NCBI RefSeq assembly: GCF_036248255.1
Contig: NZ_CP109178.1
Span: 6,262,001 to 6,326,000 of the forward strand
Origin: Streptomyces sp. NBC_01717
Lineage (GTDB): Bacteria > Actinomycetota > Actinomycetes > Streptomycetales > Streptomycetaceae
Direction: 5' to 3'
DNA: 64,000 nucleotides
The position numbers were made by a program, and so were the translations under genes. Each line of letters opens with the position of its first letter. Within the stretch, counting starts at the first letter, position 1. The notes under the pieces were generated by a model. That model worked only from the letters and a program-made list of their open reading frames with translations. It had not been told where the DNA came from and did not search any database. Positions 49,622-60,889 of the stretch are shown here, piece by piece.

Positions 49622-51354
49622 TACGCGGCCTCCGCTTCCGTCAGCTGGGAGAGCACGATCTCCCGGTAGGTTTGATTGCCGTCCATCAGCTCGTGATGGG
49701 TGCCGGACCCGACGACCCGGCCCTCGTCGAGCACCAGGATCCGGTCCGCGTCACGGATGGTGGACACCCGCTGCGCCACTATCACCACGGTCGCCTCGGC
49801 CGTCTCCTGCGACAGCGCCCGGCGCAGCGCGGCATCCGTCGCATAGTCGAGCGCGGAGAACGAGTCGTCGAAGAGATAGATCTCCGGTCGCTGCACCAGC
49901 GTCCTCGCGATCGCGAGTCGCTGCCGCTGCCCGCCGGAGACATTGGTGCCGCCCTGCGCGATCGGCGCGTGCAGCCCGTGCTCCAGTTCCTCGACGAACT
50001 CCTTGGCCTGCGCGACCTCCAGCGCGTGCCACAGCTCCTCGTCGGTCGCGTCCGGGTTTCCGTACCGCAGATTCGTCGCGACCGTCCCGGAGAACAGGTA
50101 CGGCTTCTGCGGAACCAGACTCACCGTCTTCGCCAGCAGCGCCGGCTCCAGCGTCCGCACGTCCGTGCCGTCGACCAGCACCTGACCGTCCGTCACATCG
50201 AACAGCCGCGGTACGAGGCCGAGCAGTGTCGACTTCCCGCTGCCCGTCGACCCGATGATCGCGGTCGTCTCGCCGGGGCGTGCCACCAGATCCACCGACC
50301 GCAACACCGGCTCCTCGGCGCCCGGGTAGCGGAAGTCCGCGGTCCGCACCTCCAGATGACCGTGAGCGCGCAGTTCCCGCACCGGCTTGACCGGCGGCAC
50401 CACGCTCGAGTCGGTCTCCAGCACCTCCTGGATGCGTTCGGCACACACCTCGGCGCGCGGCACCATCATGAACATGAAGGTGGCCATCATCACGGACATG
50501 ACGATCTGCATCAGGTAGGAGAGGAACGCGGTCAGCGCGCCGATCTCCATCCCGCCGCTGTCGATCCGGTGCGCACCGAACCAGACCACGGCGATCGACG
50601 ACACGTTCACGACCGTCATCACGGTCGGGAACATCAGCGCCATCAGACGCCCGGTGGAGAGCGCCACATCGGTCAACTCGGTGTTGGCGCCGCGGAACCG
50701 CTTCTCCTCGTACCCGTCGCGGACGAAGGCGCGGATGACCCGGTTGCCGGTGATCTGCTCGCGCAGCACCCGGTTCACCGTGTCGAGCCGCTCCTGCATC
50801 GTGCGGAACAGCGGCCGCATCCGCCGCACGATGAGACTCACCGCGATGCCGAGCACCGGCACCACCGCGAGCAGCACCGCCGACAGCGGAACGTCCTGGC
50901 CGAGCGCCATGATGATGCCGCCGACACACATGATCGGCGCCGAGACCATCATGGTGAACGTCATCAGGACCAGCATCTGGACCTGCTGGACGTCATTGGT
51001 CGTTCGGGTGATCAGCGAGGGTGCCCCGAAGCGCCCGACCTCACGTGCCGAGAACGACTGAACCCGGTCGAAGACCGACGCCCGGACGTCCCGGCCCAGC
51101 GCGGCCGCAGTGCGCGCACCGTAGAAGACGGCCCCCGTGTTGCAGACGACCTGGGCGATGGAGACGGCGATCATGATGCCGCCGTACTCCAGGATGTAGC
51201 CGGTGTCCCCTTCGACGACACCGTTGTCAATGATGTCGGCGTTGAGGGAGGGGAGATAGAGGGTGGCGCAGGTCTGCAGCAGCTGGAGAGCCACCAACAG
51301 CATGATCGGTTTTTTGTACGGGCCGAGATAGGCCCGCAGGAGTTTTATGAGCAC
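49621..51354 (-). CDS. ABC exporter half-transporter, partner A
   Basis: A 577-residue ABC exporter subunit. The membrane domain starts at residue 1 (VLIKLLRAYLGPYKKPIMLL). The ATPase has Walker A GSTGSGKST, a canonical signature VSGGQRQRLAIARTL and Walker B IYLFDDSFSALD. There Asp replaces the catalytic Glu, so this subunit contributes the non-catalytic half of the pair. Start at GTG 51354. Its stop overlaps the ATG of partner B. The complementary defects in the two subunits support an asymmetric heterodimer. Confidence 0.92.
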   Translation of the reverse strand: MLIKLLRAYLGPYKKPIMLLVALQLLQTCATLYLPSLNADIIDNGVVEGDTGYILEYGGIMIAVSIAQVVCNTGAVFYGARTAAALGRDVRASVFDRVQSFSAREVGRFGAPSLITRTTNDVQQVQMLVLMTFTMMVSAPIMCVGGIIMALGQDVPLSAVLLAVVPVLGIAVSLIVRRMRPLFRTMQERLDTVNRVLREQITGNRVIRAFVRDGYEEKRFRGANTELTDVALSTGRLMALMFPTVMTVVNVSSIAVVWFGAHRIDSGGMEIGALTAFLSYLMQIVMSVMMATFMFMMVPRAEVCAERIQEVLETDSSVVPPVKPVRELRAHGHLEVRTADFRYPGAEEPVLRSVDLVARPGETTAIIGSTGSGKSTLLGLVPRLFDVTDGQVLVDGTDVRTLEPALLAKTVSLVPQKPYLFSGTVATNLRYGNPDATDEELWHALEVAQAKEFVEELEHGLHAPIAQGGTNVSGGQRQRLAIARTLVQRPEIYLFDDSFSALDYATDAALRRALSQETAEATVVIVAQRVSTIRDADRILVLDEGRVVGSGTHHELMDGNQTYREIVLSQLTEAEAA

Positions 51355-51509
51355 GCGTGTCTCTCGGAGTCGGCAGGAGGTCGGGAGTCGACTCATTTTC
51401 CGGCAAGGCCCGCCGTGACCGCGAACGTTTTTCCTCAAGCCCAGGTCAAAAACGAGACCCGGTCCACCTGCCGGAGACCGAACCTCCGGCCGGCGGACCG
51501 GCCTCAGGA

Positions 51510-51556
51510 CTGTCCCGTGATCCCTGGCGGGCGCGCGACCAGGGATCACGGGACAG
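51510..51556. mobile_element. MITE-like repeat reduced to a perfect hairpin (copy A)
   Basis: CTGTCCCGTGATCCCTGG (51510-51527) and CCAGGGATCACGGGACAG (51539-51556) are perfect 18-bp inverted arms around CGGGCGCGCGA. The left arm plus loop matches the left end of the full-length copy at 62364, so this looks like a copy that has lost its interior. As it stands it may act as a terminator between the xylulokinase-type and ABC genes. Confidence 0.75.
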
Positions 51557-51581
51557 CCCTATGTCGCCCGGAGCGGTCGGA

Positions 51582-53027
51582 TCAGGGCGCGGAGTCGAAC
51601 GCCTCGGGATGGATCTGGTCCCGCGTCGCCCTGTACTGCTGCCGCACCGCCTGACCGACCGGCAGCTCCTCGCCCGGCTCCAGCACCTGCGCCGCCGCGC
51701 CCTGCCAGGCCGGCGGGGTGCGCGGATCGAGCGTCCCCTGCGAGACCCCCAGCGCCCAGGCCGCCTGCCGGGCAGCACCCAGCGCCGCGTACTCGGCCGG
51801 CTGCGGTACGACGACCTGCGTACCGAAGAGCGCGGGCGCAAGTCCCTGCACGGCAGGCAGCTCGGCGGCCGCACCCAGCAGGAACACCCGCCGCACCTCG
51901 ACCCCGCGGCCACGCAGCACATCGAGTGCGTCGGCCAGCGAGCACAGCATCCCCTCGAACGCCGCCCGCGCCAGATGCTCCGGCTTCATCGACTCCCGCC
52001 GCAGCCCGCTCAGCGTGCCCGCGGTGTGCGGCAGATGCGGGGTGCGCTCGCCTTCCAGATACGGCAGAAGTACGAGCCCGGACGCGCCCGGCGTCGACTT
52101 CAGCGCCAGCGCGGACAGCTCCTCCAGACCCTCCAGGCCCAGCATCTCGGCGGTGCCCCGCAGCGCACGCACCGCATTGAGCGTGTACACGACCGGCAGA
52201 TGCATCCCGGTGGCATCCGCGAACGACGTGATCATCCCGGACGGATCGGCCAGCGCCTCGTGGTGCACCGCCATCACCGAACCCGAGGCTCCCAGCGACA
52301 CCACCGCGTCGCCGGGCCCGACCCCGAGCCCGAACGCCGCCGCCATCGTCTCGCCGGTCCCGGCCGAGATCAGCAGCCCCTCCGGCGTCGTCCCTGCCGC
52401 ATCGGCGGGGCCCAGTACCTCAGGCAGCGCAGCCTGGTGCCCGAGCGCGAGCTCCACCAGATCGGGCCGGTACGCACCGCTTTCCGCCGACCAGTACCCC
52501 GTCCCCGACGCGGCACCCCGGTCGGTGGTCCGCCGGTTCGGCCGGCCCAGCAGTTGCCAGACCAGCCAGTCGTGCGGCTGCAGCACCGAAGCGACCCGCT
52601 GCGCCGCCTCCGGCTCGGTCCGCGCCAGCCATCGCAGCTTCGACACCGGTTGCGCGGCCTGCGGCACGGCCCCGACCGCCTGGGCCCAGGCCTGCCGCCC
52701 GCCGAGCCCGTCGATCAGATCGGCCGCGGCGACCTGCGCGCGCTTGTCGTTGCCGAGCAGTGCCGGACGTACGAGGTTGCCCTGCCGGTCGAGCGGCACC
52801 AGACCGTGCTGTTGCGCGGACACGCCGATGGCCTGGACGCCTTCGAGCAACCCGCCGGTGGCCGCCTCACCGAGTGAGAGCAGCCACACCTGCGGATCGG
52901 CCTCGGTGGCCTTCGCCTCGACGGGATGTGCGGCGTACCCCTGCCGGAGTACGGCACCCGTGTCCGCATCGCAGACGACGATGTGTGTGAAGGCCGAAGA
53001 ACTGTCCAAGCCGGCGACTATGCCCAT
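51582..53027 (-). CDS. xylB: FGGY carbohydrate kinase (xylulokinase-like)
   Basis: A 481-residue sugar kinase phosphorylating a pentulose or similar. The ATP-binding N-terminus is AGLDSSSAFTHIVVCDADTG. The substrate segment GVSAQQHGLVPLDRQGN is xylulokinase-like, and the second domain carries VSLGASGSVMAVH. FGGY signature region LPYLEGERTPHLP is present. No xylose isomerase or sugar transporter lies nearby, so D-xylulose is a reasonable but unproven substrate. Confidence 0.85.
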   Translation of the reverse strand: MGIVAGLDSSSAFTHIVVCDADTGAVLRQGYAAHPVEAKATEADPQVWLLSLGEAATGGLLEGVQAIGVSAQQHGLVPLDRQGNLVRPALLGNDKRAQVAAADLIDGLGGRQAWAQAVGAVPQAAQPVSKLRWLARTEPEAAQRVASVLQPHDWLVWQLLGRPNRRTTDRGAASGTGYWSAESGAYRPDLVELALGHQAALPEVLGPADAAGTTPEGLLISAGTGETMAAAFGLGVGPGDAVVSLGASGSVMAVHHEALADPSGMITSFADATGMHLPVVYTLNAVRALRGTAEMLGLEGLEELSALALKSTPGASGLVLLPYLEGERTPHLPHTAGTLSGLRRESMKPEHLARAAFEGMLCSLADALDVLRGRGVEVRRVFLLGAAAELPAVQGLAPALFGTQVVVPQPAEYAALGAARQAAWALGVSQGTLDPRTPPAWQGAAAQVLEPGEELPVGQAVRQQYRATRDQIHPEAFDSAP

Positions 53028-53087
53028 GATGAAGATTCTGCCGCACCGCCGGAGCTTTCCCGTACGGAAGGCGGGCGGCCACCCCTG

Positions 53088-53393
53088 TCACGTGTTGCTG
53101 GTGCCCCAGTCGTCCTCGACACCCCGGCCCTGGCTCCGCTCCCGCACCGACCGCACCCGCTCGGCCACCGAGGCGGGCACCTTGTCACCGACCTTGACGC
53201 TCACCGCGTGGTACGCCTTGCCCGCGAACTCGCGGCTGCTCTGTGCCGCGGACTCGGCGGTATTGCGCACGGCCGGGTTCTGGGCGATCTGACGTGCGGA
53301 CTTCTTCAGCTGCTCGTAGCGCTCGCGTCCGGCCCGTGTGCCGATGACGTAACCGAGGGCCAGGCCGGCGATGAACGTGAGCCGGTACCGCAT
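53088..53393 (-). CDS. YtxH-like small membrane-associated protein
   Basis: A 101-residue protein with one N-terminal helix (MRYRLTFIAGLALGYVIGTR) followed by an amphipathic helical stretch with Ser/Ala/Arg-rich heptads. This is the architecture of YtxH/gas-vesicle-GvpP-like stress proteins. It is common beside other genes in Streptomyces and of unknown function. ATG at 53393 is preferred over an upstream GTG at 53402. Confidence 0.75.
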   Translation of the reverse strand: MRYRLTFIAGLALGYVIGTRAGRERYEQLKKSARQIAQNPAVRNTAESAAQSSREFAGKAYHAVSVKVGDKVPASVAERVRSVRERSQGRGVEDDWGTSNT

Positions 53394-53597
53394 GGCTGCC
53401 ACCCTTCTCCTGCTCCGTGCTTGCTGCGTATGTGCTCGGTGCGACGTGTGCTGCCCGCCTACCCGCCGGGGCCCGAGATCACCCGGGGCGATACCGATTG
53501 GCGGAGCACCCCCCCGCTTGCGCTAATGTATGTGTCGCAGCGAACGCGCGCCGCCCGGCAGCAGCCAGGCAGGTAGGGTTCGGTGCAAACGCAGCAA

Positions 53598-53670
53598 TCC
53601 CCTGTAGCTCAATTGGCAGAGCAGCCGGCTGTTAACCGGCAGGTTACTGGTTCGAGTCCAGTCGGGGGAG
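53598..53670 (+). tRNA. tRNA-Asn (GTT)
   Basis: Full cloverleaf of 73 bases: acceptor TCCCCTG with CGGGGGA, and D arm GCTC...GAGC. The anticodon stem is GCCGG/CCGGC with loop CTGTTAA (anticodon GTT). The T arm is ACTGG-TTCGAGT-CCAGT. No CCA is encoded. A TAATGT hexamer at 53524-53529 could be a -10 element. Confidence 0.97.
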
Positions 53671-53675
53671 CGCGA

Positions 53676-53748
53676 TCCCCTGTAGCTCAATTGGCAGAGC
53701 ATTCGGCTGTTAACCGGAGGGTTACTGGTTCGAGTCCAGTCGGGGGAG
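53676..53748 (+). tRNA. tRNA-Asn (GTT), second copy
   Basis: Begins 5 bp after the first copy and is nearly identical to it. It differs in the anticodon stem (TTCGG/CCGGA, containing a T-G pair) and the variable loop. Same GTT anticodon and T arm. The tandem would be processed from one transcript. Confidence 0.97.
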
Positions 53749-53757
53749 CGGAACGGA

Positions 53758-53781
53758 AGAGGGCCCTTCGGGGTCCTTTTT
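53758..53781 (+). terminator. Terminator after tRNA-Asn pair
   Basis: GGGCCC-TTCG-GGGTCC with five T residues following directly (53777-53781). It is an unusually classic rho-independent terminator for this genome. Confidence 0.85.
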
Positions 53782-53941
53782 CGCGTGCCGGGCCGGAGGG
53801 TGGTTCGACGGCCGGAGCCGGACTCTTTCGTGTCTACGCCACACCGTCCGGAACCGGGCAGCGAGCAGCACAGTCCTCATGGTCAGGCGAAGCCGACCAT
53901 CCGGAGCGAGAGATCGTATGACCGGCTATGCTGCGGCAGAC

Positions 53942-53963
53942 GGCGCGCACACATGTGCGCGCC
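53942..53963. other. 22-bp inverted repeat directly before a tRNA
   Basis: GGCGCGCACA and TGTGCGCGCC flank a 2-base centre (CA). It ends 10 bp before the mature 5' end of the CAT-anticodon tRNA, in the 5' leader that RNase P would remove. It might direct processing or bind a regulator. Confidence 0.45.
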
Positions 53964-53973
53964 ACGCCGAAAA

Positions 53974-54050
53974 GGGGCGGTAGCTCAGCCGGTTAGAGCA
54001 GCGGACTCATAATCCGTCGGCCGTGGGTTCGAGTCCCACCCGCCCCACCA
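53974..54050 (+). tRNA. tRNA with CAT anticodon (Met elongator, or Ile2)
   Basis: Cloverleaf with acceptor GGGGCGG/CCGCCCC, anticodon loop CTCATAA and an encoded 3' CCA. The G1-C72 pair and the absence of the three G-C pairs of initiator tRNA exclude tRNA-fMet. Whether C34 is left alone (Met) or converted to lysidine (Ile2) cannot be told from the gene alone. Confidence 0.93.
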
Positions 54051-54187
54051 CGGCGGCTGCAGCGCAGGAACGTTCCAGCCTTCTGGAAACAAGGATGCAC
54101 ACGCGGCAGCGTCGAATGTGCAAGACACGCTGAAGGCCCTTCGAGGGCCCCCTGTCGGCTCAGCGGCCGACGGATCGGAGCAGGACG

Positions 54188-54217
54188 GAGCCCCGGCCGC
54201 ACATGCGGCCGGGGCTC
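54188..54217. terminator. Strong hairpin downstream of tRNA
   Basis: GAGCCCCGGCCGCA pairs with TGCGGCCGGGGCTC, a stem of 14 bp with a minimal loop. A weaker stem, AGGCCCT/AGGGCC, lies at 54134-54149. Confidence 0.75.
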
Positions 54218-54772
54218 TGTGCGAGGCCTCCCGCGGAGCCCGAACTCCGCACGCACCGACCCGTTTCGTCCGGGCATACGTCAAGTGGGCCGGCTGTCAG
54301 CGGCGTTGAGAGGGCGTGCGGGAGCTGTGGCGTCCCGCGTCTGCCCCCCTGACGCTCAGTACGGGCAATTTCCTTTGCGTTAGCAACGCATTTGACTCAT
54401 CGCGACTCCGCGGCGAGCCCTCGAACGGTAGCGGCCCGCCGTCACGCTCCGGGGCCGCCCCGTCGCGCCCCGCCTGCGCCTGTGGGTATCTGTCGGCCGT
54501 GGACCCGGATCTGCGGGGGCGCGGGGCTGCTGCGGCCGGTTTTCGCCAGGGGCGCTGCGGGTGGGCCCCGTTGTGCCGATGAGGCGCCCTGCAGACCCCT
54601 TTGTGCCCGTGTGTCATGCAGGGCGATACCTCGAATATTTACCGGGAAATGCGGCTTTTGCCCGAATTCGTACGCGTACGACTTGTTGGTCCCGTTAAGG
54701 CGTCGTAGTGTCGGTAGTGCCGCGGCAGAAACAGGGAGCGGCACACCGAACTACTTCCCAAAGGAGGCGAAG
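54218..54772. other. Intergenic region with TGCGTT/AACGCA operator-like repeat
   Basis: No supported gene in 555 bp. TGCGTT-AGC-AACGCA (54376-54390) is a perfect inverted repeat in an A/T-richer stretch, resembling a MarR- or LacI-type operator. It is about 400 bp before the small Gly-rich gene. The stretch 54630-54710 is again A/T richer and likely holds that gene's promoter. Confidence 0.5.
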
Positions 54773-54967
54773 ATGAACGTTCGTGACATCTTCCGCCATG
54801 GGGGTGGCAGGGGTCGTTGGGGCGGCTGGGGCGGCTACGGCGGCTACGGCGGTTACGGCGGCTACGGCTACGGCTTCGGTCGGCGTGGACGCGGCGGCTT
54901 CGGACGTCGAGGCCGCGGCGGTTACGGCGGCTACGGCGGCTACGGCGGCTACGGCGGCTTCCGCTAA
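54773..54967 (+). CDS. Tiny Gly/Tyr/Arg-rich protein (GGY and RGG repeats)
   Basis: A 64-residue protein. After MNVRDIFRHGGGRGRWGGWG it consists of GGY repeats, a GFGRRGRGGFGRRGRGG middle and a second GGYGGYGGYGG block ending FR. It contains no Cys, Lys or signal peptide. A strong AAAGGAGG ribosome site lies 5 bp before the ATG, and a strong terminator follows, so it looks like a real, well-expressed single gene. The composition resembles eukaryotic RGG/GGY RNA-binding, condensate-forming proteins. Alternatives are a structural or bacteriocin-like exported peptide, given the ABC exporter gene next in line. I do not recognise a family. Confidence 0.75.
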   Translation: MNVRDIFRHGGGRGRWGGWGGYGGYGGYGGYGYGFGRRGRGGFGRRGRGGYGGYGGYGGYGGFR

Positions 54968-54999
54968 TCCCCGACCACCCAGAATCCCCAAACCCCTTA

Positions 55000-55044
55000 C
55001 ACGAGGCTGGCCCGCGCGACCGCGCGGGTCACGCCTCGTGGTTT
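55000..55044 (+). terminator. Terminator after the Gly-rich gene
   Basis: CACGAGGC (55000-55007) pairs with GCCTCGTG (55033-55040), with an inner CCCGCGCG/CGCGCGGG stem, followed by GTTTT. Confidence 0.8.
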
Positions 55045-55231
55045 TGGGGCCCGCGCCCCAGGGGCCTCCCGTTCGGATCATGTCGGCCTGCGGCCCCTGG
55101 CAGGCGTTCCGCAGGCGCTCTTCAAGGCTTGAATCACGACGGCATCGCAGATCGCGCTGTGATCCCGCCCCGATCCGGGAGCGGGCTCCGGCCGTTGTCC
55201 GCATTCCGCACTCCTCAGTGATGTGAGGCCC

Positions 55232-57115
55232 ATGCGCCTTCTCGGCCCCCTCGCGCGCCCCGACGAGCCGCCCCCGGAATCGGTGACGGACGTTCCGATC
55301 CGTACCGACCCCATCAGCGTGGTGCGGTCGTTCCGGCGGTTCTGGCCGCTCACCTATGGCGACCGGCGCTGGCTCCTGCTCATCTGCGCCCTCGCCGCCG
55401 TGACCGCGGTCGCGGAGACCATCACCATCCTTCTCTTCGCGGAACTGACCGACAACGCTCTGCAGCAGGGATCCGTCAGTGCCTTCTGGAAACCTGCTGG
55501 TCAGTGGCTCACCGTGGCCGTCATCGGTGCGATCGTGGGGTATCTGTGCAGCTCGCTCGCGGTATGGACCGCCGAACGCTTCGTGATGCGGCTGCGGGCG
55601 CGCGTCTTCAGTCATCTGCAGACGCTGCCGCCCCACTTCTACCAGCGCAATCGCCGTGGTGACCTGGTCGAGCGGCTCACCGGCGATGTGGAAGCCATCG
55701 AAGCCCTCGTGGTCTCCGGCATCGTCGGGGCTGCGACCGCCCTCTTCAACACCTTCTTCTACGCTGCCGCCGCCGCGTGGCTGAGCTGGAAACTTGCCCT
55801 CGCCACCTTTGCCATGATCCCGCTCTTCTACCTCGTCACCCGCGTGTTCACGGGGCCTCTGCGCGCGGTGTCCCGGCGCGGACGTGCGGCGGACGGTGCC
55901 ATCACTGCCGTGGTCGAGGAGACGCTGGTCAACGTCGTCATGACCCAGGCGTACAACAGGCAGCACGACGAGGAGGAACGGCTCCTCGGCAAGGCGCGTG
56001 CCCGGTTCAAGGCAGCGGTGAGAGGCACCCGGCTCGCCGAGCTCTACGAGCAACTCGTAGAGGTCCTCGAAACCGTGTGCGTCCTGGTGATCATCGGTCT
56101 CGGGGCGTGGCAGATCTCCACGGGCGGGATCACACTCGGTCAGCTCCTCGCCTTCGCCGCCTTCATCGGTTCCCTCTACCCGCCGATCCGCTCCCTGGGT
56201 CAGCTCGGTCTGACGGCCACCGCCGCGACCGCCGGAGCCGAGCGGCTTCTGGAGATCCTCGACACCAAGCCAACCGTCACCGACCCGGGCGCGTCCGTCG
56301 CGGCCCCGGCCCGGCGGCGCGCCGTCGGCGAGGTGGAGGCGCAGCAGGTCGACTTCCACTACCCCGGCAACCCTGAGCCGGTTCTCCGCGGTCTCTCGTT
56401 CACTGCGGTCCCCGGCGAACTGCTGGTCATCACCGGCCCCAGCGGAGCCGGCAAGTCGACCCTGGCCGCTCTGCTGCTGAGGTTCTACGACCCGGACGTC
56501 GGCAGCATCCGGCTGGACGGCACATCCGTGGACCAGCTGCCGCTGACCTACCTGCGCCGGAACATCACGCTGCTGCCGCAGGACACTCTCGTCCTGCACG
56601 ACACCATCGAGCAGAACATCGCGTGCGGGCGCACCGATACGACCCTCCGTGACATCGAGGAGGCCGCGCGGGCAGCCGACGCGCACGACTTCATCCGTGC
56701 CCTTCCCGACGGCTACAAGACCGTTGTCTCACCAGGCACGTCCCGCCTCTCCGGCGGTCAGCTGCAGCGCATCGCGATCGCCCGTGCCATGGTCCGCGAC
56801 GCGCCCGTTCTCCTTCTCGACGAGCCCACCACCGGCCTGGACGCACTGGCCGCACAGCGCATCCTCGGCCCGCTGCGACGCCTCGCCGAGGGACGCACCA
56901 CCATCGTCATCACGCACGACCTGGCCCTCGCCACCGACGCCGACCGCATCCTGGTGCTGGACGAGGGGCGTCTGGTGGAGTCGGGCACGCACACCCAACT
57001 GCTGGACCGGAGCGGCCTGTACGCCACGCTGTTCGACGCCAAGCCCTCGCGTCGCAACGGCACCGTGAACGCATACGCCAAGCATGCGCGCCCATCGGGA
57101 ATCCATTGGAGGTAG
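55232..57115 (+). CDS. ABC transporter, fused membrane and ATPase domains
   Basis: A 627-residue type IV ABC exporter. The six-helix membrane domain runs from about 45 to 340 (LLLICALAAVTAVAETITIL first). The ATPase has Walker A GPSGAGKST, signature LSGGQLQRIAIARAM, Walker B VLLLDEPTTGLD and H-loop THDLALA. All catalytic residues are present, so it can work as a homodimer. No peptidase C39 domain is seen. ATG at 55232 follows GAGG; a GTG at 55223 is also in frame. Its substrate is unknown; the upstream Gly-rich peptide is one candidate. Confidence 0.92.
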   Translation: MRLLGPLARPDEPPPESVTDVPIRTDPISVVRSFRRFWPLTYGDRRWLLLICALAAVTAVAETITILLFAELTDNALQQGSVSAFWKPAGQWLTVAVIGAIVGYLCSSLAVWTAERFVMRLRARVFSHLQTLPPHFYQRNRRGDLVERLTGDVEAIEALVVSGIVGAATALFNTFFYAAAAAWLSWKLALATFAMIPLFYLVTRVFTGPLRAVSRRGRAADGAITAVVEETLVNVVMTQAYNRQHDEEERLLGKARARFKAAVRGTRLAELYEQLVEVLETVCVLVIIGLGAWQISTGGITLGQLLAFAAFIGSLYPPIRSLGQLGLTATAATAGAERLLEILDTKPTVTDPGASVAAPARRRAVGEVEAQQVDFHYPGNPEPVLRGLSFTAVPGELLVITGPSGAGKSTLAALLLRFYDPDVGSIRLDGTSVDQLPLTYLRRNITLLPQDTLVLHDTIEQNIACGRTDTTLRDIEEAARAADAHDFIRALPDGYKTVVSPGTSRLSGGQLQRIAIARAMVRDAPVLLLDEPTTGLDALAAQRILGPLRRLAEGRTTIVITHDLALATDADRILVLDEGRLVESGTHTQLLDRSGLYATLFDAKPSRRNGTVNAYAKHARPSGIHWR

Positions 57116-57159
57116 GGACCTAGAGGGAACCGGCTCCGGACCGGTCGTTACCATCCGCT

Positions 57160-58428
57160 GTGACCGAAACGACCGAAGAACCTGTACATCGCACGCGCAT
57201 ACTCGCCGACCTGACGCCGCTGCGTACCTCACCCGACTACCGGCGGCTCTGGTTCGGGAACACGGTCTCCTGGATCGGGCAGGGGATGACGGCGCTTGCC
57301 GTGTCGCTCCAGGTGTACGACATCACCGGGTCCGCCTTCTCGGTCGGGCTCATCGGGTTCTGTTCGTTTCTGCCGCTGGTCGTCTTCGGGCTGTACGGCG
57401 GGGCCGTCGCGGACACCGTAGACCGGCGCAAACTGGGGCTGGCCAGCTCCTTCGGTTCGTTCGTCCTCGCTGTCGCACTGGTCGCCGCGAGCGTCGCCGG
57501 GGTCGAGCAGCTGGGGCTGCTGTACGCGGTCGTCGCGCTGCAGGCGGTCTGCTTCGCGCTCAACTCACCGGCCCGCAGCTCGATGGTCGCGCGCCTCCTG
57601 CCGGCCGAGCAGCTGCCTGCCGCAAACGCGCTCAGCTCCATCACCAGCACCACCGGTGCGCTGGTCGGGCCGATGCTGGGCGGACTCATGGTCGGCTGGT
57701 GGGGGTACCGGGCCGCGTACACCGTCGACGCCGTCACCTTCACGGCCGCGCTGTACGCGATGTGGCGGCTGCCCTCGATGCTCCCCGAGCGCGGGGTCGA
57801 CGCGGGGAGCGAGAAGCGGGCGTCCGTGGTGGGCGGGCTGCGCTTCCTGGCGGCGCGTCCCGTTCTGCGGATGACCTTCTTCACCGATCTGTGCGCCATG
57901 GTCCTCGCCCACCCGCGGGCGCTCTTCCCGGTCGTCGCCGTGCTCTGGTACGGCGGTGACGCGAAGACCACCGGGCTGCTGGTCGCGGCTCCGGCGCTGG
58001 GCGCACTGCTGGGCGGGGTGTTCTCCGGCTGGCTGAGCCGGATCAGACGGCACGGGCTCGCGGTGATCGCCGCCGTGACCTGCTGGGGCAGCGCCATCGC
58101 CGTCTTCGGGCTGACCCGTCAGCTCTGGCTCGGGCTGGTCCTGCTGGCGCTCGCCGGCTGCGCGGACACCGTCTCGATGGTCTTCCGGAACACCATGCTC
58201 CAGGCGGCGGTGCCGGACGAGATGCGGGGGCGGCTGCAGGGCGTGTTCATCGTGGTGGTGGCCGGTGGGCCGAGGCTCGGGGACTTCCTGGCGGGTTCGG
58301 TCGCCGATCTGGCGTCCCCGACGGTGGCGGCCACCGGGGGCGGCATCGCATGCGTGATCGCGGTGTCGCTGCTCGCGCTGAAGTGGCGGGGGTTCGCCCG
58401 GTACGACGCCCGGGATCCGCAGCCCTGA
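57160..58428 (+). CDS. MFS transporter, EntS-like
   Basis: A 422-residue major facilitator with 12 predicted helices. It begins (after a 28-residue cytoplasmic leader) with LRTSPDYRRLWFGNTVSWIG. The EntS/MFS_3 group motif region GAVADTVDRRKLGL follows helix 2. Likely a multidrug or siderophore exporter. The GTG start is 44 bp after the ABC gene, so the two may be co-transcribed. A strong terminator hairpin follows. Confidence 0.88.
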   Translation: MTETTEEPVHRTRILADLTPLRTSPDYRRLWFGNTVSWIGQGMTALAVSLQVYDITGSAFSVGLIGFCSFLPLVVFGLYGGAVADTVDRRKLGLASSFGSFVLAVALVAASVAGVEQLGLLYAVVALQAVCFALNSPARSSMVARLLPAEQLPAANALSSITSTTGALVGPMLGGLMVGWWGYRAAYTVDAVTFTAALYAMWRLPSMLPERGVDAGSEKRASVVGGLRFLAARPVLRMTFFTDLCAMVLAHPRALFPVVAVLWYGGDAKTTGLLVAAPALGALLGGVFSGWLSRIRRHGLAVIAAVTCWGSAIAVFGLTRQLWLGLVLLALAGCADTVSMVFRNTMLQAAVPDEMRGRLQGVFIVVVAGGPRLGDFLAGSVADLASPTVAATGGGIACVIAVSLLALKWRGFARYDARDPQP

Positions 58429-58433
58429 CCGGG

Positions 58434-58468
58434 CCGGGGGCCGGTCCTGCGGGCCGACCGGCCCCCGG
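58434..58468. terminator. Terminator between converging genes
   Basis: CCGGGGGCCGGTC pairs with GACCGGCCCCCGG (13-bp perfect stem), between the MFS gene and the convergent VOC gene. Confidence 0.8.
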
Positions 58469-58485
58469 TGGCGTGGCTCCTCCGC

Positions 58486-59286
58486 TCAGGCGGTCACGTC
58501 GGAGAGCTTCGGCATCTCGCCCTCGGTCGTCTTGACGTCGATCACGGAGAATGCCGCGCCCTGCGGGTCGCTCAGCGCCGCGAAACGGCCGAACGGGCTG
58601 GTCATCGGACCGAACCGGAGAATCGCCCCGCGATCCGTCGCCCTCGCGACCGCCGCGTCGCAGTCCTCGACGGTGAAGTACACATTGAGGTACGGCGGTA
58701 CCTCGGGCGGGAAGTCGTCCGTCATCCTCATCCGGCCCAGGACCGGATCGGCGCCCAGGTCGTAGAGCGCGAAGTCGATCGCGTCGTCCTGCATCTGCTT
58801 CACGCGGTACGGGAAGACGGCGGGGAAGAACGCGTCCGACTTCGCCGGGTCCCGGGTGAACACCTCGGCCCAGCAGTACGCGCCCGGTGTGGCCCTGGCC
58901 TCGAACCCTTCGTGCTGCCCCGCCTGCCACACACCGAAGACCACCCCGCCCGGGTCGCGGGCCAGCGCCATCGAGCCGAAGTCGCCGACCTGCATCGGCT
59001 CCATCAGCACCTCGCCACCGTTGTCACGGATCTTTGCGGCGGTGGCTGCGGCGTCCGGCGACGCAAGGTACAGGCACCATGCCGACTGGCCTTCCTGGCC
59101 GGGCATCGGCGGCACGACGGCGGCCACCGCCTTGCCGTTCGCGTACGCCTGCGTGTAGTTGCCGAACTCCGACGACGACTCACCGAACGTCCACCCCAGC
59201 ACGTCACCGTAGAACCTCTTCGCCCCCTCGAGATCGGTGAACATCGCGTCCGCCCAGCACGGGGTGCCCTCTGGTTCCACAGCCAT
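58486..59286 (-). CDS. Two-domain VOC family protein
   Basis: A 266-residue protein with two vicinal oxygen chelate units. The first is CWADAMFTDLEGAKRFYGDV and DPGGVVFGVWQ. The second is YCWAEVFTRDPAKSDAFFPA and DPQGAAFSVIDV. Such duplicated VOC proteins (27 kDa antigen-like) are frequent in actinobacteria, with roles in glyoxal detoxification or metabolite binding. ATG at 59286 has GGAG at good spacing. Confidence 0.88.
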   Translation of the reverse strand: MAVEPEGTPCWADAMFTDLEGAKRFYGDVLGWTFGESSSEFGNYTQAYANGKAVAAVVPPMPGQEGQSAWCLYLASPDAAATAAKIRDNGGEVLMEPMQVGDFGSMALARDPGGVVFGVWQAGQHEGFEARATPGAYCWAEVFTRDPAKSDAFFPAVFPYRVKQMQDDAIDFALYDLGADPVLGRMRMTDDFPPEVPPYLNVYFTVEDCDAAVARATDRGAILRFGPMTSPFGRFAALSDPQGAAFSVIDVKTTEGEMPKLSDVTA

Positions 59287-59332
59287 GGTTCTGCGCTCCT
59301 GACTCGCTGATTCGGTACGGTTTTTCACGCTA

Positions 59333-59490
59333 AGGGCTGTCCCGTGGTCCCTGGTGGATCGGCGCGCGGCGTCGGATGCGGTGCATCGCAAGGCGGAGGG
59401 GCGTCCTCGTACCGGTCCGTATTCGGGGGTTCCGGCAACGCGGCGAGATGCTGTAGCCGTCGTCGTGCGTCCGCAGGGATGACGGGACAG
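59333..59490 (+). mobile_element. MITE-like intergenic repeat, full-length copy B
   Basis: A roughly 158-bp element with imperfect inverted ends (AGGGCTGTCCCG at left, CGGGACAG at right; CCCTGG/CAGGGA within). The interior (TCGGCGCGCGGCGTCGGATG..., GCGGCGAGATGCTGTAGCC) recurs in the copy at 62364 in opposite orientation. It has no coding capacity and lies between genes. It matches an intergenic repeat I recall as widespread in Streptomyces genomes. Confidence 0.75.
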
Positions 59491-59524
59491 CGTCAGCCGG
59501 CAATCCCGCAGGCCGCGCGGCGAA

Positions 59525-60889
59525 CTACCCGCCGGCGGCCGTGGCCTCCGGGGCCGCTATGCCGCGGGCGACCCCCAGCTCCACCAGGTCCTGGGGGCGC
59601 AGGCGCAACTGGTCGGCCGTGGCGTGCACGGCGTCGGGGGAGCGCTTCAGGATGGCTGCCGCGAGCTCCGGGGCGATGACGGAGAAGTAACTGTCCGGGG
59701 TGACATATGTGTTCTCCGGCGCAGCCAGGGCGAGTGCCCCGCCCGAGCCGCCCTCGCCGATCACCAGGGTCGTCACCGGGACCCGGGCCTCGGCGATCGC
59801 CGCGAACGCATCGGCGATGGCAGCCCCCGCGCCCGCCCGTTCCGCCTCGGCGTCGTTCGCCGCCCCCGGGGTGTCGATCAGAGTCAGTACGGGCACGCCG
59901 AGCCGGTCCGCGAGCCGGATCACCCGGGCCGCGGTGCGGTAACCGGCCGGACGGGTCGCCGTGCCGCACTGGGCGACGTACGCGATCGGCCGGCCGCCGC
60001 GCACCCCGAACCCGCAGAGCAGGCCCGGATCCGTACCGCCGCACCGGTCGCCGCTGAGCGGCAGCAGGTGGTCGAAGTACGCGTCGAGATACGCCCCGGC
60101 ACGCGGCCGGGCCGAGGAACGGGCCTGTCGTACCGCGTCCCAGCCGGTCGCCGGCAGCCCGGTGGCCGCGAGAGCGCCCGGGACCGGCGCGGGGACACCG
60201 GACTCGTCGACGCCTGCCGCCCCCAGCGCGCCCAGCCACCGGCCCAGCGTCCGTGGCAGCTCGTCCGCGTGGACGACCGCGTCGATCTGGCCCGCAGCCA
60301 GCTGGCCCTCCGCGGCGTACGCCGACGGGTCCGCGTCCACCGGCCGCACCCGCGATCCGGCGAACCCGATCTGGGCCCCCGGCAGCGCCAGGATCACATC
60401 GGCGCCCGCCCCCAGCGTGGCCCAGCCGCCGCCGGTCGTCGGATCGCGCACGATCGCGAGCTGCGGCAGCCCCGCCGCCCGCAGCCGTGCCGAGGCACGT
60501 GCCACTCGCTGGAGCTGGGTGAGCGCGATCATTCCCTCCTGCATCCGGCTGCCGCCCGTCGCGACGATCGAGACGAGCGGCAGCCGCCGGGTGAACGCGG
60601 TCCCGTAGGCGGCTTCCAGCAGGTCCCCGGTGCGCTGCCCCAGGGATCCGCCCAGGAAGCCGAACTCGAACGAGATCAGCACACACGGTCGGCCGCCGAC
60701 CGTGCCGAGGCCGTGGACGACGGACTCCTCCTCGCCGGTACGTGCCGTGGCGCGGGCCCGGGCGTCCGCGTAACCGGACCAGGAGAGCGGACCGTCCGCC
60801 GGTATCTCCGCGCCGGCCGGGGTGTTGGACTCGGTGAAGTCCTCGGTGACCGCCGCGATCGCCTGCCGCGCCGTCAGGCGCCTACGCAC
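59525..60889 (-). CDS. Acyl-CoA carboxyltransferase, fused beta-alpha type
   Basis: A 454-residue protein carrying both carboxyltransferase halves. The N-terminal AccD-like part includes FEFGFLGGSLGQRTGDLLEA and GGSRMQEGMIALTQLQR. The C-terminal AccA-like part includes IDTPGAANDAEAERAGAGAA and VIGEGGSGGALALAAP. No zinc finger is seen. It would transfer carboxyl groups to acetyl- or propionyl-CoA with a biotin carrier encoded elsewhere. Its GTG overlaps the malonyl-CoA ligase stop by 8 bp, so the pair is translated together. It may be a decarboxylase rather than a carboxylase. Confidence 0.85.
   Translation of the reverse strand: MRRRLTARQAIAAVTEDFTESNTPAGAEIPADGPLSWSGYADARARATARTGEEESVVHGLGTVGGRPCVLISFEFGFLGGSLGQRTGDLLEAAYGTAFTRRLPLVSIVATGGSRMQEGMIALTQLQRVARASARLRAAGLPQLAIVRDPTTGGGWATLGAGADVILALPGAQIGFAGSRVRPVDADPSAYAAEGQLAAGQIDAVVHADELPRTLGRWLGALGAAGVDESGVPAPVPGALAATGLPATGWDAVRQARSSARPRAGAYLDAYFDHLLPLSGDRCGGTDPGLLCGFGVRGGRPIAYVAQCGTATRPAGYRTAARVIRLADRLGVPVLTLIDTPGAANDAEAERAGAGAAIADAFAAIAEARVPVTTLVIGEGGSGGALALAAPENTYVTPDSYFSVIAPELAAAILKRSPDAVHATADQLRLRPQDLVELGVARGIAAPEATAAGG

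Follow-up and report, generated by a model that had tools for sequence, protein, structure and literature searches.

The window analysed here, a 64,000-nucleotide stretch of a 10.2-Mb Streptomyces genome, encodes a 64-aa peptide followed on the same strand by an ABC exporter (Table 1). The peptide ORF runs from an ATG at 54773 to a TAA stop at 54965–54967. Its product is 50% Gly and 23% Tyr, Phe and Trp, carries a net charge of +10 and places its Tyr and Arg in GGY and RGG repeats, in agreement with a preliminary description made from the DNA letters; it lacks Ser, Thr, Cys and Glu, and contains a single His and, after Met1, two aliphatic residues. No signal peptide was apparent by eye. The frame stays open 5′ of the ATG, which makes a 191-aa version possible, and the start was set at 54773 because the alignment with relatives places it there. 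The strong ribosome site pointed out earlier was also found and is retained in relatives. A 663-aa antisense ORF (54695–56686) was judged to be an artefact of GC-rich DNA.

Table 1. Features of the peptide–exporter locus, in window coordinates
Feature	Coordinates	Strand	Description
Promoter-like element	54683..54711	+	TTGTTG-N17-TAGTGT; conserved in ten-sequence alignment
5′ untranslated hairpin	54717..54744	+	GTGCCGC...GCGGCAC; predicted fold, arms conserved in alignment
Ribosome-binding site	54760..54767	+	AAAGGAGG; 5 nt 5′ of ATG, kept in relatives
Peptide gene, RGG/GGY type	54773..54967	+	64 aa; ORF list, alignment, codon comparison
Constant N-terminus	54773..54799	+	MNVRDIFRH; putative exporter recognition tag; alignments
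Variable tail	54800..54964	+	Low-complexity, polycationic; composition, alignments, locus set
Strong intergenic hairpin	54993..55049	+	Between peptide and exporter genes; −44.4 kcal/mol; probable partial terminator
ABC exporter, putatively dedicated	55232..57115	+	One TM domain and one NBD; GTG at 55223 is an alternative start
Glu62 codon of exporter	55415..55417	+	TM helix 1; acidic in 85/85 linked exporters, 1/10 paralogues, 0/30 control ABCs
Glu157 codon of exporter	55700..55702	+	Third long helix; acidic in 85/85 linked, 0/17 paralogues, 0/30 controls
Glu280 codon of exporter	56069..56071	+	Helix 244–296; acidic in 84/85 linked, 0/17 paralogues, 0/30 controls

Direct protein searches found only the window peptide because the sequence is of low complexity: none of 7963 scored candidates matched the 64-aa query at E ≤ 0.01, and across 150 genomes the query was its own sole match. 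A 461-base DNA query around the ORF matched mostly Gly-rich repeats, and among the places listed only one besides the window, in genome G075, aligned 5′ of the ORF. The RGG form is rare, since a DNA pattern combining ribosome site and N-terminus was present in only 4 of 392 genomes of the genus. Searches of Pfam and NCBIfam with 29 of the peptides returned single chance-level matches only (best E 0.14 and 0.053, respectively), and an Rfam scan detected tRNAs, its other matches lying below gathering scores. Two tRNA-Asn genes and one tRNA-Met gene precede the pair at 53598–54050, a trio that recurs in 8 of the 26 related loci that were scanned; each of the eight has an RGG-type peptide.

Both sides of the peptide gene carry conserved elements. 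The pattern TTGTT[GA]-N15–19-TA[GA].. of the promoter-like element was present in 30 of 31 RGG- and Arg-type loci, a raw count that carries no chance rate, and a scan of the region for consensus sigma-70 promoters gave no match. The stretch 54715–55060 as a whole folds with a z-score of −3.79. The preliminary description had assigned the gene its own terminator, of which the hairpin itself stood: it is strong, conserved among relatives in the ten-sequence alignment, and a comparable fold below −25 kcal/mol was found in 121 of 124 spacers, some of which may hold ABC coding sequence. Because it has no proper U-tract and a strict terminator scan found none, its role as a terminator is a fair guess only.

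The protein encoded downstream matched Pfam ABC_membrane and ABC_tran, as expected from the earlier assignment of an ABC exporter as the next gene. Domain, structure-model and fold searches gave it the domain order and fold of type I exporters such as MsbA, Atm1 and P-glycoprotein, with a TM domain followed by an NBD. The fold search returns exporters generally, so the absence of a family from its results proves nothing; STE6, the a-factor exporter, was among the tied matches. All NCBIfam matches shown were under their cut-offs, and the closest named relatives were from Streptomyces. Pfam gave no match to a C39 peptidase domain, and membership among class II bacteriocins with a double-glycine leader was accordingly not supported. 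Further 3′ lies a gene for an MFS_3-type transporter (57160–58428), a homologue of which was found close to the exporter at 8 of 27 loci, in RGG-type context.

Linkage of the peptide genes to one ABC subfamily

Because direct peptide searches failed, homologues were sought through the adjoining ABC gene. The first search returned 31 loci, of which 27, Streptomyces or actinobacterial, were kept and L029–L032 (25–36% identity) were dropped. In 26 of the 27 the ABC gene is preceded by a small ORF that has a ribosome site; at the remaining locus (L019) the contig begins inside a GGY/GRGG frame. The ABC gene alone was common to all 27 loci, the next gene cluster being present in at most eight; no modification enzyme is conserved beside the pair or common to these neighbourhoods, and a RiPP is accordingly not supported by the gene neighbourhood.

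Co-occurrence, which the preliminary description had proposed to check, was borne out by a profile of the Lys-Pro-Ala peptides (A2). The profile matched 24 places in 14 of 121 genomes, while the ABC protein matched in 29 of the same genomes at E ≤ 1e-150, and all 24 profile places adjoin an ABC match of at least 60% identity. At this identity there are 33 ABC places. Profile matches account for 15 and the window and G075 for two more; of the other 16, the 15 that were fetched all carry a peptide and add the tail types Pro/Lys and Asn/Pro, and the last (G032) is cut by a contig end. ABC places at 44–47% identity have MAIF- or MSIL-type peptides in eight of eight cases, mostly His/Gly/Asp- or Arg-rich. 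An order-wide search found the ABC gene in 60 of 245 genomes and four of eight genera, at 82 places, of which 66 were scanned, 8 were examined elsewhere, G032 was cut and 7 were left out. A peptide was present in 65 of the 66 scanned loci (60 flagged by script; L243, L250–L252 and L271 accepted on reading), and the exception, L230, has merely 79 nt upstream. Among non-redundant ABC rows, a peptide was found in 87 of 90 (L151 included), the other three having no upstream DNA, compared with none of eight paralogue rows. These sets overlap and their counts are not to be added.

To compare with other upstream regions, we scored ORFs of 30–75 aa with a hydrophobic third residue, low entropy, a net charge of at least 6 counting His, and a ribosome-site-like motif. 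Such ORFs were found at 63 of 66 linked loci, compared with 1 of 30 genes of another ABC family, none of 17 paralogues at 30–36% identity and 9 of 122 other genes; the last figure is a weakness, as it puts their chance occurrence upstream of a gene at about 7%. A stricter motif separated 20 of 26 test loci from 0 of 30 controls (26 of 30 loci were used, four giving no blast match). It missed five MAIF/MSIL-type loci and L122, and later counts were therefore based on the looser criterion, with controls and reading by eye. With 65 of 66 loci against 1/30, 0/17 and 9/122, adjacency far exceeds the control rates and strongly supports what the preliminary description had offered as its alternative, an exported peptide tied to the ABC exporter. 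From this sequence comparison, peptide and ABC protein almost certainly form a functional unit.

Peptides with constant N-termini, variable tails and tandem copies

Loci of this ABC subfamily carry one to five genes for short (32–69 aa), mostly cationic, low-complexity peptides directly upstream of the exporter. Most of the peptides share a short N-terminus, MNVRxIF in the window and MSFxKxxP or MAIFxxLxP elsewhere, followed by a tail whose type depends on the clade: RGG/GGY, Arg, Lys-Pro-Ala, Pro-Lys, His-Gly-Asp, His-Lys or poly-Arg. The closest clade combines an M[NK][VA]RxIF start with RGG/GGY tails, with the exception of the Asp/Arg-rich L007. The next has a MSFRKVFPRR-like start and Arg-rich tails, some also RGG-like, and further out are peptides of the form MSFHKIxPVKK...RRPVG with Lys-Pro-Ala tails, three of them in tandem at L022. 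Some His/Asp-rich tails and L027 have little or no net Lys/Arg charge. Further cases outside Streptomyces were found in G514 (Trp/Arg), G530, G537 and G664. Among the relatives listed (120 of 314, plus 46), all are named 'hypothetical' or 'uncharacterized' except one 'Histone H1'.

In six genomes, linked exporters are 45–100% identical to that of the window, and the next paralogues 30–36%. A tree of 94 ABC rows splits off the eight paralogues with support 99 and unites the 12 RGG rows in one clade with support 100; the 11 tail labels require 10 changes, the minimum, with labels for L020/L094, L021/L023, L151 and the eight paralogues assigned by hand. The headline of the preliminary description, a eukaryote-like RNA-binding condensate protein, fared less well: RGG/GGY repeats occur mainly in one clade, Pro, His, Lys or Arg being enriched in the tails of the others. 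With tails that vary in this way inside a single ABC subfamily, RGG/GGY is not a conserved property and a condensate role is not supported as one, though the window member by itself may still have it.

Relatives hold the start, frame and N-terminus constant while third codon positions vary. In the RGG group, position 3 differs 86 times compared with 37 and 39 at positions 1 and 2, and single-change codons are synonymous in 75 cases and non-synonymous in 28 (7 non-independent pairs). The ratios, likewise from non-independent pairs, were 3080:2435 for Lys-Pro-Ala and 612:493 for Pro/Lys peptides, and no clear excess was seen for the Arg (18:21), MAIF (23:18) and His-Lys (5:5) types. Selection on the amino acids is thus evident in the window clade and, for the other peptide types, weaker or uncertain. 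The peptide ORF could in principle be a chance frame in GC-rich repeat DNA, where open frames are common: 72 ORFs of at least 50 aa overlap 50000–60000. The comparative data already contradict this and leave it with a negligible probability, since promoter-like element, ribosome site, start and N-terminus are all conserved, length changes are in-frame and the window clade shows a synonymous excess. Both the homologues in related genomes and the synonymous bias, on which the preliminary description had made the reality of the gene depend, were found, and the 64-aa ORF is confirmed as a genuine gene by comparison of sequences.

Fourteen loci have tandem arrays of two to five peptide genes. Their 22 inter-copy spacers fold at −5.3 to −21.3 kcal/mol, compared with −41.8 to −52.3 kcal/mol for the spacer before the ABC gene in 13 of 14 arrays; that of L107 measured only 28 nt. 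In those 13 arrays, then, a strong hairpin follows the final peptide gene and no other. At two loci, L114 and L258, a gap of only 5 nt separates the peptide stop from the exporter start. Taken together, these arrangements look more like an operon of peptide genes and exporter that contains a partial terminator than like a series of attenuators.

Outside the class, a phylum-wide search identified 14 loci with an ABC protein at least 54% identical to the Streptomyces His-clade exporter L118, and Arg-rich peptides are encoded upstream at 11 of these; most resemble MAKFSxMxPA and contain long Arg tracts. L289 and L292 have two copies, and L288 has an odd N-terminus. No upstream peptide was found at L284, where the exporter is present, at L296 and L300, whose ABC matches are incomplete, or at twelve loci with 36–45% identity to L118; six places that received no locus are left out of these counts. 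Because these 36–45% relatives are without peptides and the window exporter is itself only 45% identical to L118, percent identity alone cannot bound the group. L118 is 54–63% identical to the exporters of the other class (L284–L296), a pattern that may reflect horizontal transfer. The peptides upstream of the ABC match at L285–L295 contain up to about 14 consecutive Arg, very unusual for a bacterial coding sequence.

Three acidic residues (Asp or Glu) in the membrane part mark the linked exporters and are missing from nearly all paralogues and from the controls, which are 30 members of one other ABC family (Table 1). In the phylum-wide set outside the class, all three were present in 10 of 11 peptide-bearing loci and in none of 12 peptide-less relatives; two loci have lost one or two of them, the exporter of L288, the locus with the odd peptide, having Gln at 62 and 280 and that of L284, where no peptide was found, Gln at 280. 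In an AlphaFold model of moderate quality (25 sequences, mean pLDDT 73, pTM 0.56), positions 62, 157 and 280 lie in helices 30–79, 142–184 and 244–296. The subfamily shares domain order and fold with MsbA, Atm1 and P-glycoprotein but is a distinct group, set apart by these residues and by the upstream peptide gene.

Proposed export of a polycation and its alternatives

From these patterns we infer how the pair may work, from expression level and export to N-terminal recognition and antimicrobial activity. The peptide is likely the cargo of the exporter, judging from linkage and conservation. Our best overall explanation, held with moderate confidence, is an unmodified polycation that would be exported by its dedicated ABC protein and be antimicrobial-like outside the cell. 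A short, probably disordered polycationic peptide would be translated from its strong ribosome site, with the exporter perhaps made at a lower level because of the hairpin, and would leave the cell through the exporter encoded directly downstream, with neither leader cleavage nor modification enzymes. The constant N-terminus would be the mark read by the exporter, and the tail would serve as a polycation whose exact letters matter little, allowing each lineage its own mix. The acidic membrane-part residues suit a cationic cargo, whose path they may line; they could also serve another substrate or a coupling role. By the logic of leaderless bacteriocins, the peptide would outside the cell most likely be an antimicrobial-like polycation, with an extracellular structural or polyanion-binding role as the main variant, and the exporter may protect the producer as well. 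Antimicrobial action taken by itself, argued from analogy, is possible rather than probable. Against this reading count the small or absent net Lys/Arg charge of some His/Asp-rich tails and of L027, the synonymous ratios of the Arg, MAIF and His-Lys types, and the exporter of L284, upstream of which no peptide was found; the peptides also have no known peptide-export signature.

An exported polycation or metal binder with a non-antimicrobial, structural role (cell wall, extracellular DNA, metal capture) would draw on the same linkage evidence, and on the His-rich tails of the MAIF clade. We consider it somewhat unlikely, as the tail classes have no common metal ligand and the window peptide offers one His and neither Cys nor Glu. 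The small ORF might instead be a regulatory leader, in which stalling on repetitive codons (poly-Arg, poly-Pro, poly-Lys) would open the hairpin and turn the ABC gene on. Several tail types translate slowly, and most loci have a strong hairpin separating the ORF from the exporter gene. For the Streptomyces resistance gene lmrC, PMC8546547 likewise describes a small ORF and hairpin ahead of an ABC-type gene under such an attenuator; LmrC, however, is an ABCF protein and not an exporter, whereas the loci here have multiple copies, a constant N-terminus and, at L114 and L258, no room for a hairpin. Arrays of two to five genes have no strong hairpin between copies, and the N-terminal residues are conserved, which makes such a leader unlikely. 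Gly/Tyr and His/Gly tails are also not known to stall ribosomes.

Two further accounts would keep the peptide inside the cell. In one it would bind nucleic acid or another polyanion, as an RGG/GGY condensate or a histone- or protamine-like protein, and be linked to the exporter for some other reason. RGG/GGY, Lys-Pro-Ala and poly-Arg tails do look like nucleic-acid-binding tails, one relative was named Histone H1 by its source, and the tails of the window clade resemble eukaryotic RGG/GGY RNA-binding proteins in composition. Unlike those proteins, the peptides match no RNA-binding domain and shift in composition from clade to clade, RGG/GGY being found mainly in one; such a role does not suit the Pro-rich, Asn/Pro and His/Asp tails and leaves the obligatory exporter unexplained, so that we regard this role as quite improbable. 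In the other, the peptide would act on the exporter from the cytoplasm, as a partner or inhibitor, rather than being its cargo; that the pairing is fixed and the N-terminus constant agrees with this. A regulatory subunit would not usually vary so much in its tail or occur in tandem copies, and this account is very unlikely.

The preferred reading, export of a polycation, can be set beside known peptides. Leaderless bacteriocins, as outlined in PMC11580447, are short and cationic, have no leader and occur in single or several copies per locus, and those of the aureocin A53 type form a helical globule of four to five helices, aureocin A53 having five Trp. The peptides described here are similarly short and mostly cationic, with no leader seen and one to five copies; against that outline, the window peptide, half Gly with two aliphatic residues after Met1, does not by composition fit a helical globule. 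Membership among leaderless bacteriocins was not supported, given this composition and no match to a sequence family. Nematode NLP and CNC (caenacin) peptides, described in PMC2453101 as Gly/Tyr-rich and as products of tandem duplication and diversification, with synthetic NLP-31 active in vitro, share the Gly/Tyr-rich composition and tandem copies. These are eukaryotic, and we claim compositional convergence only, not homology.

In the titles and abstracts of the open-access papers searched, the peptide–exporter pair was not described. A small peptide with a dedicated exporter is an already known type, of which the pair here would be a variant. Besides the Gly/Tyr-rich peptides, animal antimicrobial peptides include His-, Pro- and Arg-rich classes, which the tails likewise resemble in composition. 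We tentatively propose that the loci may represent an actinobacterial class of leaderless, unmodified low-complexity polycations with exchangeable tails and acid-marked exporters of their own, whose tails would have converged on such composition classes. They would then amount to a bacteriocin or extracellular polycation system of a new kind, invisible to homology searches and, in the best-known antibiotic-producing genus, a simple one. Low-complexity proteins escape such searches, and peptides of this kind therefore stay 'hypothetical'; the link to one exporter subfamily provides a handle for finding them across actinobacteria. It also makes testable how an exporter could read a short constant tag yet tolerate diverse polycations, including tracts of ten or more Arg.

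Two minor observations concern the surroundings of the pair. The matched exporter stretches at G011:C9:356245-358026 and L230 (G645) contain an in-frame TAG, possibly from a decayed copy or an overrun of the range. At four of eight loci (L142, L146, L148 and L149), the MAIF-type peptide gene is preceded by the end of a putative gene for an ApbE-type flavin transferase.
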